Source: Burkholderiales bacterium Ga0077547 (GTDB lineage Bacteria; Pseudomonadota; Gammaproteobacteria; Burkholderiales; Burkholderiaceae_C). Taken from it: a stretch of 64,000 nucleotides of DNA. The notes beneath the pieces are model-generated. The model made no database searches and had not been told where the DNA came from. It was given only the letters and a program-made list of their open reading frames with translations. The stretch is from NCBI GenBank assembly GCA_001464195.1, contig LNEY01000021.1, positions 1-64,000 on the forward strand. Direction: 5' to 3'. A program made the position numbers and the translations under genes. Below are positions 53,158-62,118 of this stretch, one piece after another (within the stretch, counting starts at the first letter, position 1; every line of letters begins with the position of its first letter).

Positions 53158-53201
53158 TGTAAATGCAAGTTGACAGTTCAAAATGTCAGCTTAGCATTAC
53201 A
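53158..53201 (+). promoter_or_regulatory. Tandem PpsR/CrtJ sites and promoter of bchC
   Basis: Two palindromes with perfect TGT-N12-ACA spacing, TGTAAATGCAAGTTGACA (53158-53175) and TGTCAGCTTAGCATTACA (53184-53201), are 8 bp apart. A TTGACA (53170) and TAGCAT (53192) with a 16-bp spacer place the -35 in site 1 and the -10 in site 2, as described for the Rhodobacter bchC promoter under CrtJ/PpsR control. Confidence 0.88.
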
Positions 53202-53289: not shown

Positions 53290-54228
53290 TTGAACACGAT
53301 GGCTGTCGTCCTTGAGCGACCTGAGCAGCTCGTGCTCAGTCGTTTGGACCTGACCGACGCGACCGACGAAGACGTGACGGTCGACATCGAATGGAGCGGC
53401 ATCAGCACTGGCACCGAACGCCTGCTGTGGTCGGGGCGGATGCCCGCCTTTCCGGGCATGGGCTACCCGCTGGTTCCAGGTTATGAATCGGTGGGGCGAG
53501 TGGCCAAGGCCGGCTCCCAGTCAGGCCGCCAAGTAGGTGAACGCGTCTTCGTGCCGGGCGCGAAATGCTTCGGTGACGTGCGAGGCCTGTTCGGCGGTGC
53601 CGCGGCCCACGTGGTCCTCCCGGGCGCGCGGACGATCCCATTCGCCGAAGATCTGGCAGAGCAGGGCGTGTTGCTGGCGCTGGCAGCGACCGCCTATCAC
53701 GCGCATTCGATGGAGGGGCTGACGCAGCCCGATTTGATCATTGGTCACGGCGTGCTGGGTCGCATGATCGCGCGCTTGGCCGTGGTGGCAGGCGCCTCGC
53801 CCACCGTATGGGAAACCAATCCTGCGCGTCGTGAGGGCGCCATGGGATACGAGGTGATCGACCCCTCAACGGACGCGCGGCGCGATTACCACTGCATCTG
53901 CGACGTCAGTGGCGATTCTTCGTTGCTCGACACACTGATTTCGCGCCTCGCACCCGGCGGCGAAGTGGTGCTCGCCGGTTTTTACGACGAACCACTGTCC
54001 TTCGTGTTCCCACCGGCCTTCATGCGTGAAGCCCGCATTCGTATCGCCGCGCAGTGGCTGCCCAGCGATCTGGTTGCGGTGAAGAACCTGGCCGAGTCCG
54101 GCCGGCTGTCACTTGACGGCCTGATCACACACCGTGCCGACGCCATGGAGGCCGACTCGGCCTACCGCACAGCGTTCGGCGACCCGACGTGTTTGAAGAT
54201 GATTTTGGATTGGAGGTCTTGCCCATGA
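53290..54228 (+). CDS. bchC: Bacteriochlorophyllide a dehydrogenase BchC
   Basis: A 312-residue zinc-alcohol-dehydrogenase-type protein: VDIEWSGISTGTERLLWSG, VPGYESVGRV, then a nucleotide-binding half around GHGVLGRMIARLAVVAGA. BchC oxidises the 3-hydroxyethyl group in late bacteriochlorophyll a synthesis. The start is probably a TTG at 53290, placed 7 bases after a GGGAG site; an ATG three codons later (53299) is too far from that site. It overlaps bchX (ATGA). Confidence 0.93.
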   Translation: MNTMAVVLERPEQLVLSRLDLTDATDEDVTVDIEWSGISTGTERLLWSGRMPAFPGMGYPLVPGYESVGRVAKAGSQSGRQVGERVFVPGAKCFGDVRGLFGGAAAHVVLPGARTIPFAEDLAEQGVLLALAATAYHAHSMEGLTQPDLIIGHGVLGRMIARLAVVAGASPTVWETNPARREGAMGYEVIDPSTDARRDYHCICDVSGDSSLLDTLISRLAPGGEVVLAGFYDEPLSFVFPPAFMREARIRIAAQWLPSDLVAVKNLAESGRLSLDGLITHRADAMEADSAYRTAFGDPTCLKMILDWRSCP

Positions 54229-55277: not shown

Positions 55278-56867
55278 ATGTCCAAGACCATCCCCATCAT
55301 CGCAGCGGCGCAGGCAGCCACACCGGCGTCGCCCACGGCTCCGGGCGTGCCCTCGACCACGCTCGACGGTGACGGCATGGGCTGCCATGCCGGAGGCGAT
55401 CAGCTGCTGGCTGCTGCCAAGTCGGCTGGCAAGTCAGAGGTTCTGGACCAGTACGCGAAGGACTATCCGAAGGACCCTAAAGCCGGTCCGCACGACCAGC
55501 CGCAGAGCATGTGCCCGGCCTTCGGTTCGCTGCGTGTCGGTCTGCGGATGCGTCGCACCGCGACCATCCTGTCGGGCTCGGCGTGTTGCGTGTATGGCCT
55601 GACCTTCACCTCGCATTTCTACGGTGCGAAGCGCAGCGTCGGCTACGTGCCGTTCAACAGCGAATCGCTGGTCACCGGCAAGCTGTTCGAGGACATCCGC
55701 GAGGCCGTCCACAAGGAAGCCGATCCGGCGAAGTACGACGCCATCGTCATCATCAACCTGTGCGTGCCGACGGCCAGTGGCGTGCCGCTGCAGATCCTGC
55801 CTAAGGACATCAACGGCGTGCGCATCATCGGCATCGACGTGCCGGGCTTTGGCGTGCCCACGCATGCCGAAGCGAAAGATGTGCTCGCAGGCGCGATGCT
55901 GAAATATGCACGCAACGAGGTCTTGGCAGGCCCCGTGCAAGCGCCGCGCACGGGTCGCTCCGACAAGCCGACCATCGCGCTGCTCGGCGAGGTCTTCCCA
56001 GCCGACCCGGTGATCATCGGCATGATGCTCGAGCCGATGGGTCTGGCGGCAGGGCCGGTCGTTCCGACCCGCGAATGGCGAGAGCTCTATGCCGCGCTCG
56101 ACTGCACCGCAGTCGCCGCGATCCACCCTTTCTACACCGCCAGCATCCGCGAATTCGAAGCAGCAGGGCGCCCCATCGTGGGCTCGGCACCTGTGGGCTA
56201 TGACGGCACCGAAGCCTGGCTGCAGGCCATCGGCCAAGCGACCAACACATCGCAAGACCTGATCGATGCGGCAAAGAACCGCATCCTGCCCGCCATCCGT
56301 GGCGCGCTGGCGAAGACGCCGATCAAGGGACGCATCACGCTCAGCGGCTACGAAGGCTCCGAATTGCTGGTCGGCCGCTTGCTGGTTGAAAGCGGCGCTG
56401 ACCTCCGCTACGTCGGCAGTGCCTGCCCACGCACCGCCTGGAACGAAGCCGATCTGCAATGGCTGCAGGCCAAGGGCGTGCAGGTTCAGTTCCGCGCATC
56501 GCTCGAACAAGACTTGGCCGCAATTGCCGAGTACCAGCCCGATCTGGCCATCGGCACCACGCCCGTCGTTCAGTACGCCAAGGCACAAAGCACACCATCG
56601 CTGTACTTCACCAACCTGATTTCGGCGCGCCCACTGATGGGCCCGGCAGGCGCCGGCTCGCTGGCCACGGTGATCAACGCCGCCATCGGTAACAAGGCGC
56701 GCTTCACGCAGATGAAGGACTTTTTCGGCGCGGTGGGCGAGGGCCATTCCTCTGGCGTGTGGGAGCCGGCCAATGGCATCCCGAAAGACCGCCCCGAATT
56801 CAAGGCCGACCAGCGCCGCCAGGCTGAAAAGCTGGCGAAAAAGCGCAAAGCCGAGGAGATGATCTGA
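55278..56867 (+). CDS. bchY: Chlorophyllide a reductase subunit BchY
   Basis: A 529-residue NifD/BchN-like subunit. Cluster-ligand candidates lie in [14 protein letters not shown] and [15 protein letters not shown]; further conserved stretches are [17 protein letters not shown] and [20 protein letters not shown]. With BchZ it forms the catalytic component of chlorophyllide a reductase. It starts 27 bp after bchX and its stop shares one base with the bchZ start (TGATG). Confidence 0.95.
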
Positions 56868-58345
56868 TGCTGGTTCTCGATCACGATCGCGCAGGCGGCT
56901 ACTGGGGTGCCGTGTACGTCTTCACGGCCATCAAGGGCCTGCAAGTCGTCATCGACGGCCCGGTGGGCTGCGAAAATCTGCCGGTCACATCGGTCCTGCA
57001 CTACACCGACGCGCTGCCGCCGCATGAGTTGCCCATCGTCGTCACCGGTCTGGCTGAAGAGCAGCTCGGACGCGAAGGCACCGAAGGCTCGATGCGCCGC
57101 GCGCATGCCGCGCTCGACCCCGATTTGCCATCGGTGGTGGTCACCGGGTCGATCGCCGAAATGATCGGTGGCGGCGTCACGCCGTCGGGTACCAACATCC
57201 AGCGATTCTTGCCGCGCACGATCGACGAAGACCAGTGGCAATGCGCGAATCGCGCGATGTTCTGGCTGTGGAGCGAGTACGGCATGAAAAAAGTGCCGGC
57301 GCGCAAGCCTTATGCAGAGCGGCCGGCCGGCGAAAAGCCACGCGTCAACATCATTGGCCCGTGCTACGGCACCTTCAATTGCCCCAGCGACCTGGCCGAG
57401 ATTCGGCGCCTGGTGCAGGGCATCGGTGCCGAAGTGAACATGACCTTCCCGCTCGGCAGCCACCTGGCGGACGTGTCGAGGCTGGTCGAAGCCGACGTCA
57501 ACATCTGCATGTACCGAGAATTCGGGCGCATGCTGTGCGAGGCGCTTGATCGCCCGTACCTGCAAGCCCCGATCGGCCTGCACAGCACCACCAAGTTCCT
57601 GCGCAAGCTGGGTGAATTGCTGGGTCTCGATCCCGAACCCTTCATCGAACGCGAAAAGCACACCACGATCAAGCCGATCTGGGATCTCTGGCGCTCCGTG
57701 ACGCAAGACTTCTTCGGCACCGCCAGCTTCGCTGTGGTGGCCAACGACACCTACACCCGCGGCATCCGCCACTTCCTCGAAGACGAGATGGGCTTGCCGT
57801 GCCAGTTCGCGGTGTCCCGGCTGCCAGGCGCCAAGACGAATAACGAAGAAGTGCGCCAGTTGGTGAAAGACAAGACGCCGCTCGTGATGTACGGCAGCTA
57901 CAACGAACGCATCTACCTCGCCGAATGCGGCGGCGGTTCGATGATGAAGGCGAGCTTCATTCCCGCCTCGTTCCCATTGCCCATCATCCGCCGCCACACC
58001 GGCACGCCGTTCATGGGTTACTCCGGTGCGACCTACATCGTGCAGGAGTTTTGCAACGCACTGTTCGACGCGCTGTTCCACATCCTGCCGCTGGGTACCG
58101 ACCTCGACCGCGTCGACCCGACGCCCGCACGCATCGATGGTCAGGCGCCGAGCCCGTGGGATGTAGACGCGCAGGAACTGCTTGACGAGATCGTGCAGAC
58201 CGAGCCCGTCCTGGTGCAGATATCAGCTGCAAAACGTTTGCGTGACCGCGCAGAACGAGACGCGCGCAGAGCTGGCGAGGACCGCGTCACGGCGGCGCGG
58301 GTGGCGACCTCGCGTGACGCCATGAGGCAGGGAGAGCCGGCATGA
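56867..58345 (+). CDS. bchZ: Chlorophyllide a reductase subunit BchZ
   Basis: A 492-residue NifK/BchB-like subunit, with [35 protein letters not shown] and [16 protein letters not shown]. The C-terminal 50 residues ([20 protein letters not shown] onward) form the usual small helical tail. The gene ends 144 bp before pufB. No pufQ-like frame is visible in that gap. Confidence 0.95.
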
Positions 58346-58377
58346 GGCCCAGTGCATCAGCCGTTGTAGATGAATTC

Positions 58378-58396
58378 GTTCAGCCCCAAGCTGAAC
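58378..58396 (+). other. mRNA hairpin 1 between bchZ and pufB
   Basis: GTTCAGC and GCTGAAC form a perfect 7-bp stem with a CCCAA loop. It may stabilise or punctuate the transcript entering the puf operon. No T-run follows. Confidence 0.5.
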
Positions 58397-58455
58397 ACAC
58401 CGAATGTCGTGGCGCAGTGCCGCGGCTGCCTCGATCGCGCGGGCTCTGCGCGATA

Positions 58456-58471
58456 ACGGCCACGTGGCCGT
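58456..58471. other. Perfect 16-bp palindrome before pufB
   Basis: ACGGCCACGTGGCCGT is a perfect palindrome ending 18 bp before the pufB start codon and just upstream of its TAAGGAG ribosome-binding site. It could be an mRNA 5' stabilising hairpin or a protein site. Confidence 0.55.
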
Positions 58472-58489
58472 CCTTAAGGAGTAAATCCT

Positions 58490-58636
58490 ATGGCTGAAAG
58501 AAAAGGCTCTATATCAGGCCTGACCGATGAAGAGGCACAAGAGTTTCACAGATTCTATGTGCAAGGCTTCATCGGCTTTACTGCTGTTGCAGTGATAGCG
58601 CACTTCTTGGTGTGGGCTTGGCGTCCTTGGCTCTGA
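58490..58636 (+). CDS. pufB: Light-harvesting complex 1 beta polypeptide
   Basis: A 48-residue LH1 beta chain: [20 protein letters not shown], one membrane helix, His38 in AVIAH as bacteriochlorophyll ligand, His20 upstream, and the terminal aromatic WAWRPWL. A strong TAAGGAG site precedes the ATG. The codons are visibly less GC-rich than in flanking bch genes. First gene of the puf operon. Confidence 0.95.
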
Positions 58637-58660: not shown

Positions 58661-58885
58661 ATGGCTGATACAACGAATCTCTCTTTGCAGCAGATATTGA
58701 AGAACGACTCAAAAGCGTATCTTGGAATCTTTGCAGTGAGCTTTTGCTTGTTGTTGGTGGTTGCCTTGTGCGCGCAAGCGATGACATGGCAATGGCGTTC
58801 CTGGTTACCCGGGGCAGAGGCAGAGAAATCATTGATCGGCGGCGTCAAAGGTGCCGTTTATACCTTTATGTCCCATTTACATTAG
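58661..58885 (+). CDS. Small beta-like membrane protein inserted between pufB and pufA
   Basis: A 74-residue protein with one membrane helix (about residues 20-41) and its own GGAAGGGG ribosome-binding site. Its first 49 residues align without gaps to PufB at an offset of one: the terminal WAWRPWL of PufB matches WQWRSWL (43-49), and Ala34/His38 match Ala35/Gln39, so the bacteriochlorophyll-ligating His is Gln. Overall identity outside these points is low. A 25-residue tail (PGAEAEKSLIGG to FMSHLH) follows and is absent in LH1 beta. It lies 24 bp after pufB and 10 bp before pufA, so it must be cotranscribed. Function unknown; an LH1 ring accessory subunit is inferred. Confidence 0.85.
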   Translation: MADTTNLSLQQILKNDSKAYLGIFAVSFCLLLVVALCAQAMTWQWRSWLPGAEAEKSLIGGVKGAVYTFMSHLH

Positions 58886-58895
58886 GAGATAGACC

Positions 58896-59096
58896 ATGTG
58901 GAGAATTTGGCGTTTGTTCGACCCACTTCGTACGATGGTTGCGCAAGGCGTTTTTCTGTTCGGCTTGGCTGTACTGATTCATTTGGTGCTGCTGAGTACA
59001 TCGACCTTCAACTGGATCGATGGCGCGAACTCCAGGGCCAAATTGGCGCAACAAGCGTCAATGCCTGCAGAAACGACTTCACCCGTCGTCAAGTGA
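58896..59096 (+). CDS. pufA: Light-harvesting complex 1 alpha polypeptide
   Basis: A 66-residue LH1 alpha chain beginning [20 protein letters not shown], with His29 in AVLIH as bacteriochlorophyll ligand and FNWIDGA after the helix. A polar Ala/Gln/Thr tail of about 20 residues follows. TTAGGAG precedes the start. In most purple bacteria it follows pufB directly; here a 74-codon gene separates them. Confidence 0.95.
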
Positions 59097-59101
59097 CAGC
59101 A

Positions 59102-59153
59102 TCGGGCTTGCGCCCGAGGTAGACGCGGCGCGGGCTCACGCCCGGCCCCGTCT
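59102..59153 (+). other. Two tandem hairpins between pufA and pufL
   Basis: TCGGGC-TTGC-GCCCGA (59102-59117) is a perfect 6-bp stem with a tetraloop. AGACG...CGTCT (59121-59153) encloses GGGC-TCAC-GCCC with small bulges. Comparable intercistronic hairpins protect the pufBA segment of the Rhodobacter puf mRNA from decay and raise LH1 over reaction-centre synthesis; the same role is inferred here. Confidence 0.7.
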
Positions 59154-59212
59154 GCCAACACGATTTTCGCCCTCGGCAATCTGGTATTGCCTGGGGCCCG
59201 GAGGAGTAGCCC

Positions 59213-60037
59213 ATGGCCACGCTCAGTTTTGAAAGAAAATACCGTATCCGCGGAGGGACCCTGGTCGGAGGGGATCTTTTCGATTTCTGGGTCGGGCCGT
59301 TTTATGTCGGATTCTTCGGCGTCACGACTTTATTTTTCAGCTTGCTCGGTACTGCGCTGATCTTGTGGGGCGCGGCCATCGGTGGCACCTGGAATGTCTG
59401 GCAGATCAATATTGCACCCCCTGACCTGAAATACGGTCTTGGCTTTGCGCCTTTGCGCGAAGGGGGGCTGTGGCAACTGATCACGGTCTGTGCCATTGGT
59501 GCATTCGGATCCTGGGCACTTCGAGAAGTTGAGATTTGTCGAAAACTCGGCATGGGCCTACACGTGCCGGTTGCCTTCTCATTCGCGATATTCGCTTATG
59601 TCACACTGGTCGTGGTTCGACCGGTTTTGATGGGCGCATGGGGTCACGGTTTCCCGTACGGAATATTGAGTCACCTCGATTGGGTTTCGAATACAGGTTA
59701 TCAATACCTGCACTTTCATTACAACCCGGCGCACATGCTGGCGATCACCTTCTTCTTCACCACCTGCCTCGCGTTGTCGCTGCATGGCGCGCTGGTGCTG
59801 TCGGCTACCAATCCGAAAGCGGGCGAAACCGTCAAGGCGCCGGAGCATGAAGACACCTTCTTCCGCGACACCATCGGCTACTCCATCGGCACCTTGGGCA
59901 TCCACCGCCTCGGCCTCTTTCTGGCACTGTCGGCCGTGTTCTGGAGTGCGGTGTGCATCGTGATCAGCGGCCCGTTCTGGACACGTGGCTGGCCTGAATG
60001 GTGGGGCTGGTGGCTGAATCTTCCCATCTGGCATTGA
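59213..60037 (+). CDS. pufL: Photosynthetic reaction centre L subunit
   Basis: A 274-residue five-helix membrane protein starting [20 protein letters not shown], with [20 protein letters not shown] (chlorophyll-ligand His region) and [20 protein letters not shown] (quinone/iron His region). It binds half of the special pair with PufM. GGAGGAG precedes the ATG. The first two thirds use visibly more AT-rich codons than the end of the gene. Confidence 0.97.
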
Positions 60038-60061: not shown

Positions 60062-61036
60062 ATGGCTGAATACCAGAACATCTTCACCGCGGTACAAGCG
60101 GTTGGCCCGATCCACCACGGCATCGAGCACAAAACACAGAGCACGCGCCTCGGCGAGCCCTTCCTCGTCCACTTGATCGGCCGCATCGGCAATGCGCAGA
60201 TCGGGCCGGTCTACCTCGGCGCCCTCGGATTGGCCTCGATCTTTTTCGGCACGCTGTCGATCAACATCATGGGCTTCAACATGTTGGCGTCTGTGAACTG
60301 GGATCCAGTTCAGTTCATTCGTCAGCTCTTCTGGCTGGCACTGGAACCACCGGCACCCAGCAATGGCCTGGGACTGGCGCCCCTGAACCAGGGCGGCTGG
60401 TGGCAGATTGCGGGCTTGTTCCTGACGATGTCTATCCTGCTGTGGTGGGCCCGAACCTACCGCCGTGCTCGCGAGCTGGGCATGGGCACGCACGTGGCCT
60501 GGGCATTCCTGGCCCCGATCTGGCTGTTCTTGGTGCTGGGCCTCTTTCGTCCGGTGTTGATGGGCAGCTGGGGTGAGGGCGTTCCGTTTGGCATCTTCCC
60601 GCACCTGGATTGGACCGCGGCCTTTTCGATCCGCTACGGCAACCTGTTCTACAACCCGTTCCACATGCTGTCGATCGCGTTCCTGTACGGCTCAGCACTG
60701 CTGTTCGCCATGCACGGTGCGACCATCCTGGCGGTGAGCCGCTTTGGCGGCGAACGCGAGATTGAGCAGATCACGGACCGCGGAACCGCCTCGGAGCGCG
60801 CCGCGCTGTTCTGGCGCTGGACCATGGGCTTCAACGCCACGATGGAATCGATACACCGCTGGGCATGGTGGTTCGCGGTTCTGACGCCCATCACCGGCGG
60901 CATCGGCATCTTGCTGACCGGCACGGTGGTGGACAACTGGTATCTGTGGGCGGTGAAGCACGGTGTCGCGCCAATGTACCCAGCGGTGTGGGCTCCAGTG
61001 ATCGACCCGTCGACGCTGCAGGGAGTCAAGCCATGA
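60062..61036 (+). CDS. pufM: Photosynthetic reaction centre M subunit
   Basis: A 324-residue membrane protein with [20 protein letters not shown] and the iron/quinone region [20 protein letters not shown]. It pairs with PufL in the reaction-centre core. It begins 24 bp after pufL and overlaps pufC by 4 bp (ATGA). No pufX follows. Confidence 0.97.
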
Positions 61037-62118
61037 ATAGGAACTTCACAATGACACTGCGCTTGCTCTTGCTTGCTGCTGCAACGCTGCTGGCAGGTTG
61101 CGAAAGGCCACCGATTGAAGCGGTGCAGCATGGCTTTCGTGGCACCGGCATGGCCGAAATCTACAACCCTCGAACCCTGGATGCCCAGGCGCCGCTGAAC
61201 CAGGTGCCAACGGCACTGGCGCCAGCCGCGCCCGGAGGCCCGGCTGCGACACTCGTCTACCAGAATGTTCAGGTTCTCAACGACCTGAGCGTGGGCGAGT
61301 TCACACGGTTGATGGTCGCCATGACAGCTTGGGTGTCGCCGGAGCAAGGTTGCACCTACTGCCATAGCGCCGAGAATTTCGCGTCGGACGACAAGTACAC
61401 CAAGGTCGTGGCTCGCAAGATGCTGCAGATGACGCGCAAGATCAACACCGACTACAAGACCCACGTGGCGGAAACCGGCGTGACCTGCTACACCTGCCAC
61501 CGCGGAAACAATGTCCCGGCCAACGTTTGGTTCAAGGCCGAGCCTGAGAAGCGATCTGTTGGCTTGTTGGGTGACCGGGCAGGGCAGAACACGGTATCGA
61601 CCGTCGCGAACCTGTCTTCTTTGCCTGAAGATCCTTTCACACCGTTCCTGCTCGGTTCCGAGGAAATTCGTGTGCACGGTACGACGGCGTTACCCACGGG
61701 AAACAAGCACACCATCCAGCAAGCGGAATGGACTTACAGCCTGATGACGCACATGTCGACGGCACTTGGTGTGAATTGCACTTACTGTCACAACAGCCGC
61801 TCGTTCGCGGCATGGGAAACCAGCCCCCCGCAGCGCGCAACCGCTTGGTACGGGATCCGCATGGTGCGGGATCTGAACAACGAGTACATGGAGCCGATCA
61901 CCAAAGTGTTCCCAGCCCATCGACTCGGCCCAACGGGTGACGTGGCCAAGGCCAACTGCCAGACCTGCCACCAAGGCGCATACAAGCCGCTGTACGGTGC
62001 CAGCATGCTGAAGGATCACCCGGAACTGGCTGCGCAACGACCGTCACCGGCTGCTTCCGCCGTTGAAGCGCCCGCAGCGCAGGCGCCGGCCAAACCGGTG
62101 GACGTGGCGGCGAAGTAG
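61033..62118 (+). CDS. pufC: Reaction-centre tetrahaem cytochrome c subunit
   Basis: A 361-residue lipoprotein: the signal peptide ends in the lipobox LLAGC. Four CXXCH haem sites are present at about residues 107 (CTYCH), 152 (CYTCH), 249 (CTYCH) and 309 (CQTCH). It re-reduces the photo-oxidised special pair from the periplasm. Haem attachment needs the Ccm system encoded within the same cluster. The tail is Ala/Pro-rich. It overlaps pufM and is followed by a terminator. Confidence 0.96.

Follow-up and report, generated by a model that had tools for sequence, protein, structure and literature searches.

The window, by which we mean the whole 64,000-nucleotide stretch of DNA analysed here, comes from a Burkholderiales genome of 2.84 Mb (33 contigs, 88% complete) and carries a puf operon on its forward strand (Table 1). 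An earlier note on this DNA had reported a 74-codon gene between pufB and pufA with its own strong ribosome-binding site, and the coordinates of this gene, ORF74, agree with that description, as does the predicted pairing of its Shine-Dalgarno stretch (-11.5 kcal/mol, vs. -7.7 for pufB and -7.3 for pufA). Across operons, the median predicted energies are -9.4 for ORF74, -8.2 for pufB and -7.3 for pufA; the picture is mixed and these energies are a weak guide: the pufB site is predicted to be stronger than that of ORF74 in 49 of 91 operons, the pufA site in 32 and both in 27.

Table 1. Features of the puf operon in the window.
Feature	Position	Strand	Basis
bchZ	56867-58345	+	named by synteny with annotated bchZ-pufQ-pufB
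pufB, short LH1-beta, 48 aa, ends WRPWL, without tail, both His	58490-58636	+	Pfam LHC, E 6.3e-14
Shine-Dalgarno stretch of ORF74, GGAAGGGGAA	58647-58656	+	sequence; predicted pairing -11.5 kcal/mol
ORF74, His-less tailed LH1-beta paralogue, 74 aa, ATG start	58661-58885	+	sequence comparison, selection
ORF74, likely membrane span, residues 22-44	58724-58792	+	boundaries read off the LH1-beta alignment
ORF74, Gln39 codon, where beta has its BChl-ligating His	58775-58777	+	alignment, 92 homologues
ORF74, WRSW motif, residues 45-48, common to beta	58793-58804	+	conservation in 92 homologues
ORF74, C-terminal tail, residues 50-74, homologous to long LH1-beta tails	58808-58882	+	tail-only hhalign
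pufA, LH1-alpha, 66 aa	58896-59096	+	Pfam LHC, E 1.1e-13
two predicted RNA hairpins 3' of pufA	59102-59156	+	fold of 59085-59212
pufL	59213-60037	+	Photo_RC, E 1.5e-100
pufM	60062-61036	+	Photo_RC, E 2.8e-109
pufC, multihaem cytochrome, 4-base overlap with pufM	61033-62118	+	four CxxCH motifs; named by place and motif

Neither spacing nor a profile search revealed a PufQ-like gene in the 144 bp between bchZ and pufB. This leader (58346-58489) is conserved at the DNA level in an alignment of about 30 operons and carries the repeats GCGCGGG..CGCG and GGCCG..GGCC directly 5' of the pufB ribosome-binding site. A 51-codon ORF in it (58342-58497) shifts frame among congeners and looks non-coding. 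Downstream of pufA, the fold of 59085-59212 has a z-score of -2.61, and 2 of 200 shuffles were equally stable. A hairpin after pufA stabilises the transcript in other puf operons, and the placement of the two predicted hairpins would fit stabilisation of the pufB-ORF74-pufA part of the transcript. Farther upstream, two adjacent TGT-N12-ACA sites (53158-53201) precede the gene at 53290; we take them to resemble PpsR/CrtJ sites. Over the whole window this pattern occurs 14 times vs. 9.2 expected, which is not clearly above chance.

The gene is already in print, contrary to the earlier note, which had called it undescribed: it appears as ORF2 of Rubrivivax gelatinosus (PMC12817894) and as ORF74 of Roseateles (PMC10037100). 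The former paper (2025, citing a 1994 paper) describes two ORFs of unknown function, ORF1 5' of pufB and ORF2 5' of pufA; it tested and rejected ORF2 as a source of pufA2 (LH1-alpha) and noted the missing His, and the relation of ORF2 to beta is not stated in its section on outer-ring origin (PMC12817894). By locus number, ORF74 of Roseateles depolymerans lies between pufB and pufA, and the three genes are co-transcribed on a major 1-kb transcript that showed the greatest changes on carbon starvation (PMC10037100, 2023). Thus, in Roseateles, ORF74 RNA is made together with that of LH1. In the Roseateles locus list, an ORF77 is numbered between pufM and pufC, whereas in the window pufC starts inside the end of pufM (61033-61036). 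Within the literature searched, from which subscription papers were mostly absent, we found no statement of ORF74 as a beta copy or of a kinship between PufQ and beta.

Relationship of ORF74 to LH1-beta

Residues 2-49 of ORF74 align without gaps to residues 1-48 of PufB, with 10 identities and 19 positives over 48 positions. The best local ungapped score is 58; 2000 shuffles with the hydrophobic block left intact reach at most 42. W45, R46 and W48 fall on the same residues in PufB, Gln39 stands at PufB His38 and Leu21 at PufB His20, and 25 residues follow Leu49; the alignment, the Gln, the missing upstream His and the tail are all as first described for this DNA. Searched as a single sequence against the PDB (phmmer), ORF74 retrieves beta chains (best E 2.9e-10), and its family profile retrieves LH1-beta chains with E down to 1.3e-16. 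Up to E 10 the profile has 44 matches, which are light-harvesting chains plus four proteins unrelated by name; the names PufX, W, Y, U and gamma do not occur among these chains. Neither PDB search returned a close relative of ORF74 itself, the matches being beta chains only, and the PufX Pfam model gave E 0.27, below cut-off, for one of six proteins scanned.

When our own sequence set is searched with the ORF74 profile, a threshold of E<1e-3 admits all 21 long betas, 94 of the 96 short ones and none of the decoys (20 shuffles per sequence). Profile-profile comparison links ORF74 to long beta (99.5%, E 5e-23), PufQ-like proteins (97.8%, E 8e-13), short beta (97.3%, E 2e-11) and, over 34 columns, PufQ proper (53.5%, E 1e-4). 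Derivation from LH1-alpha was rejected for lack of signal (2.4% probability in the profile comparison and no match among 108 LH1-alphas). Family models are less informative: the window protein has no match to Pfam LHC (PF00556) at E up to 1, 4 of 42 relatives match it at E up to 0.01 (best 4.4e-6), and no Pfam or NCBIfam model covers ORF74. Scattered hits to DMT_YdcZ, DUF2567 and other Pfam models were below cut-off and judged to be hydrophobic chance; a 32-residue match in a viral contig (L034), where the local ORFs look unrelated, was likewise judged to be chance.

ORF74, PufQ-like proteins and beta each form a single clade (support 97/85, 100/98, and 98/91, respectively) in a tree built on 83 rows and 73 alignment columns (34 of the 92 ORF74s, 20 PufQ-like proteins and 29 betas), which is short and unrooted, has neither outgroup nor PufQ proper, and does not allow a sister pair to be derived. 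ORF74 is not nested within the sampled betas, which implies either an old duplication or very unequal rates. On these comparisons of sequence we conclude that ORF74 is a true, divergent LH1-beta paralogue and a conserved gene of the puf operon.

Both conserved His residues are present in all 107 betas. Among the 92 ORF74 homologues, by comparison, position 39 is Q in 70, T in 7, A in 4, K in 3, L in 3, S in 2, and C, H and G in one each, and the upstream position, 18 residues before the ligand site, is His in two. The occurrence of Ala or Leu in seven homologues and Gly in one argues that ligation is not the conserved task of ORF74. The sole homologue with a ligand-site His (L070, genome G146) belongs to a lineage with low-scoring PufA and PufB. 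The WRxW motif persists, with W45 in 91, R46 in 89 and W48 in 85 of the 92, and the mean frequency of the top residue is higher in the tail (0.70) than in the helix (0.56). Judging from the His loss, the conserved motif and a tail conserved above the helix, ORF74 appears to have abandoned pigment ligation and retained an interface motif and the tail.

The median dN/dS over all usable pairs among twelve genomes is 0.097 for ORF74 (60 pairs), compared to 0.076 for pufB (52) and 0.153 for pufA (64). With the window gene as reference, dN/dS is 0.013-0.138 in 10 of 11 comparisons, the partners being ten congeners plus a single further member of the family, for which synonymous sites are saturated. 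ORF74 is therefore a real gene under purifying selection. The earlier note had proposed a divergent LH1-beta paralogue, and the PDB matches, the profile matches to betas of our own set and the missing alpha signal bear this out; abundant homologues and a median dN/dS of about 0.10 are clearly far from the absence of homologues together with a ratio near 1 that it had named as telling against its proposal. The His-to-Gln replacement that it described is not uniform across the family: nine residue types occupy the site among the 92 homologues, and no new ligand is fixed.

Tails, spacing and occurrence in Burkholderiales puf operons

The helix part of ORF74 is related to all beta-like groups, so the tail was compared separately (n = 91, one of the 92 without a readable WRxW being left out). 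Tail-only hhalign links ORF74 to the long betas with 96.3% probability (E 1.7e-9); 77 of the 91 ORF74 tails score above the top 1% of shuffles with the long-beta-tail profile, and the ORF74-tail profile, used in reverse, places 10 of the 21 long-beta tails above that cut-off. As a hint, the amphipathic moment of the tail is matched by a median of 3% of shuffles for ORF74, 11% for long beta and 43% for PufQ-like proteins. Spacing follows a similar division: ORF74 ends a median of 12 nt before pufA (10-29, n = 92) and long pufB 11-26 nt before it (n = 11), vs. 47-73 nt for short pufB in operons without ORF74 (n = 4). The tail match, the spacing to pufA and the clade structure make a long beta the most likely ancestor of ORF74, with the descent in place; it is the direction of this duplication that we infer.

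Phototrophs were found by PF00124 in 64 of 399 genomes of a family sample and 48 of 399 of an order sample (four in both). Five congeners were added (G002, G005, G006, G007, G010), which are biased toward ORF74 because they were found through ORF74 itself; among 14 congeners searched, ORF74 was present in ten, with no match in G001, G004, G011 and G013. The puf starts were taken from 112 of 113 genomes (in G700, left out, pufL runs off the contig), and five of the 112 were unreadable (contig ends in G201, G261, G458 and G551; other DNA upstream in G424). In 92 of the 107 readable operons (87 of 102 without the biased five), ORF74 is flanked by pufB and pufA, always in the same strand and order and always paired with a short beta of 47-50 residues. 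The others lack ORF74: eleven encode a long beta (76-78 residues), and four (G168, G475, G592, G622) combine a short beta with a PufQ-like ORF in the bchZ-pufB interval. Operons with two, or none, of ORF74, long beta and PufQ-like gene were not found among the 107, five of which (G006, G548, G587, G728, G765) have under 450 bases upstream of pufB and could hold a PufQ-like gene there. Three of 95 ORFs initially scored as ORF74 were reassigned as PufQ-like, being upstream of pufB. That ORF74 alternates with a tailed beta or a PufQ-like gene is new here, as is its occurrence in 92 of 107 operons; for a gene this common, no function is stated in the literature searched. Among individual genomes, pufB, ORF74 and pufA are present in a named and hence perhaps cultured strain, Rivibacter subsaxonicus DSM 19570 (L033), and G161 has two Photo_RC genes beside them.

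Two genera hold both states: g75, with long beta in G088, G655 and G684 and ORF74 in G481, G523, G561, G740 and G765, and g141, with long beta in G254 and ORF74 in G446. On a bchZ+pufL tree (101 of 107 rows) the state changes seven times. Switches between tailed beta and ORF74 or PufQ-like gene number five on the best tree and one independent switch on supported branches; given this single supported switch, the trade-off between ORF74 and long beta is not statistically proven, and a similar pattern could arise if puf operons were transferred whole. Outside the order, samples of a class (369 genomes), a phylum (299) and the class of G1171 (240), with few gammaproteobacterial phototrophs, showed no ORF74-like protein between pufB and pufA in the loci scanned, while profiles found betas and PufQ-like ORFs upstream of pufB in the same samples. 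PufQ-like ORF and long beta coexist in several alpha- and gammaproteobacteria (labels taken here from kinship codes and named plasmids), and hence the two are not mutually exclusive in general.

Possible roles of ORF74

Our preferred reading, to which we assign a probability of roughly 0.5, is that ORF74 arose by duplication of a long beta followed by a division of labour and acts alongside LH1 as a beta-like partner that carries no pigment. A long tailed beta would have been duplicated and its tasks split between the copies: the short PufB would have kept the BChl-holding His and lost the tail, and ORF74 would have kept the membrane helix, WRxW, the tail and the place beside pufA and lost both His residues. 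The protein would most likely be produced near the level of LH1. By analogy with beta, its helix would probably run from an N-terminus on the inside to a tail at the periplasmic face. In association with the ring, or with LH1 under assembly, it may take over the role of the long-beta tail, either as a lasting ring member or as a transient assembly partner.

The main rival, which we consider unlikely but worth weighing, gives ORF74 the role of PufQ. In Rhodobacter sphaeroides, PufQ binds ferrochelatase and channels porphyrin toward BChl (PMC5725709). ORF74 would replace PufQ in Burkholderiales, steering porphyrin to bacteriochlorophyll via ferrochelatase and coupling pigment supply to LH1 assembly. 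Several observations favor this. All four short-beta operons without ORF74 have the PufQ-like gene, and their bchZ-pufB gap is 372-383 bp, compared to at most 208 bp in 89 others (bchZ was not found in 14 operons, and the value of -30 for G740 is a misread). In the three g200 genomes the bchZ stop and the start of the PufQ-like ORF overlap, an arrangement also seen for annotated pufQ in five Roseobacteraceae plasmids. In 53 whole genomes (52 of the 107 plus G261), a search with the PufQ-like profile, three of whose nine rows come from genomes of this set, gave matches up to E 0.01 solely at the puf place, with no second copy, and ORF74 and a PufQ-like gene occur together in none of the 53. By profile, PufQ-like proteins are linked to ORF74 (97.8%), to long beta (98.5%) and to PufQ proper (91.2%).

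On the other hand, the tail of ORF74 resembles neither that of the PufQ-like proteins (5.8%; 3 of 91 above decoys) nor that of PufQ (0.1%), and it was this tail-only comparison that weakened the idea of a relocated PufQ, which we had initially preferred. The ORF74 profile matches 11 of 20 PufQ-like proteins and none of eight PufQs, ORF74 sits elsewhere in the operon than PufQ, and the cut-off of PF05398 (PufQ) was reached in none of 69 genomes. Furthermore, the four PufQ-like operons are explained by two changes on the tree, and 11 operons lack both ORF74 and a PufQ-like gene.

Alpha- and gammaproteobacterial genomes, as well as four from betaproteobacteria, carry PufQ-like ORFs, either in the bchZ-pufB interval or simply upstream of pufB, that PF05398 misses where tested (n = 20; L093, L107, L111, L082, L130-L132, L139-L141, L143, L144, L146, L166, L174-L177, L179, L180). 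The profile of these 20 sequences matches six of eight PufQs at E<1e-3, and no shuffle at that threshold; with a smaller set of 12 the probability of the link to PufQ proper is 38%, not 91.2%. The PufQ-proper profile matches none of the 20, the PufQ-like and PufQ tails compare at 2.8%, and a direct profile comparison of PufQ proper with beta gives 0.3%. We tentatively suggest, while thinking it rather less probable than its opposite, that a single tail-bearing, LH1-beta-like module is borne by beta, by the His-less ORF74 or by a PufQ-type protein, that PufQ is an old LH1-beta derivative found more widely than its Pfam model suggests, and that Burkholderiales swap carriers within the same operon. 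If so, antenna building and pigment supply would share a single origin. The chain from beta through PufQ-like proteins to PufQ would suggest a source of PufQ and, if it holds, would make PufQ an old LH1-beta derivative that is commoner than PF05398 shows.

A ring accessory subunit is plausible in itself, but the earlier note's fuller proposal, in which such a subunit would hold the LH1 ring open or brace it and perhaps form a quinone gate, is an improbable alternative. PufX, proteins W, Y and U, and LH1-gamma are extra small membrane proteins of LH1 rings. ORF74 is a single-helix, beta-like protein that retains WRxW and, in Roseateles, is transcribed with LH1 (PMC10037100). The RC-LH1 structure 8k5o, from Halorhodospira halochloris (PMC12817894), may hold a precedent for a lone odd beta-like chain in a ring, as its chain 4 is one 105-residue LH-domain chain alongside 16 beta copies. 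Nevertheless, we found no evidence for a gap or for quinone gating, no PDB profile match bears the name PufX, W, Y, U or gamma, and the long-beta relatives manage without ORF74.

Still less probable is a pigmented minor beta with its BChl held by Gln39. Gln can ligate chlorophyll, and it stands at this site in 70 of 92 homologues; W48, at a position that in beta hydrogen-bonds BChl, is retained in 85. However, Ala, Leu or Gly occupies the ligand site in eight homologues and Lys or Thr in ten, and just two have the upstream His. Finally, that ORF74 acts as a spacer or translation gate within the pufB-pufA unit, comparable to pufK of Rhodobacter (PMC5725709), with its protein irrelevant, is very hard to reconcile with selection on its amino acids (dN/dS of about 0.1 and near-invariant protein positions).

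Comparison with known systems

ORF2 of Rubrivivax and ORF74 of Roseateles occupy the same position 5' of pufA, and we equate them with the window gene by place and name. PufX, W, Y, U and gamma, including a gamma-like polypeptide described as an extra protein of the LH1 ring (PMC9640540), are likewise small ring proteins; ORF74 differs from them in being beta-derived and in having no profile match so named. PufQ (PF05398), like ORF74, is a small one-helix puf protein, and the two are linked via the PufQ-like genes and were not found together in the operons examined. Nonetheless, the PufQ gene overlaps the end of bchZ, before pufB, whereas all 92 ORF74 genes are flanked by pufB and pufA; the tails of the two are unrelated by profile, and ORF74 has no PF05398 match above cut-off.

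The closest likeness is to the long LH1-betas of Burkholderiales (for example, that of G088), which share with ORF74 the one helix, the WRxW end, the C-terminal tail and the spacing to pufA. The PDB chains 8z81_B, 9m8m_B and 7xxf_B likewise have one helix, a WRxW end and a C-terminal tail; no publication on the long-beta structures 8z81 and 9m8m was found in the literature searched. In contrast to LH1-beta, ORF74 lacks both conserved His residues and accompanies a normal beta, and such a beta copy, free of the pigment ligand, offers a direct test of the role of the beta tail.
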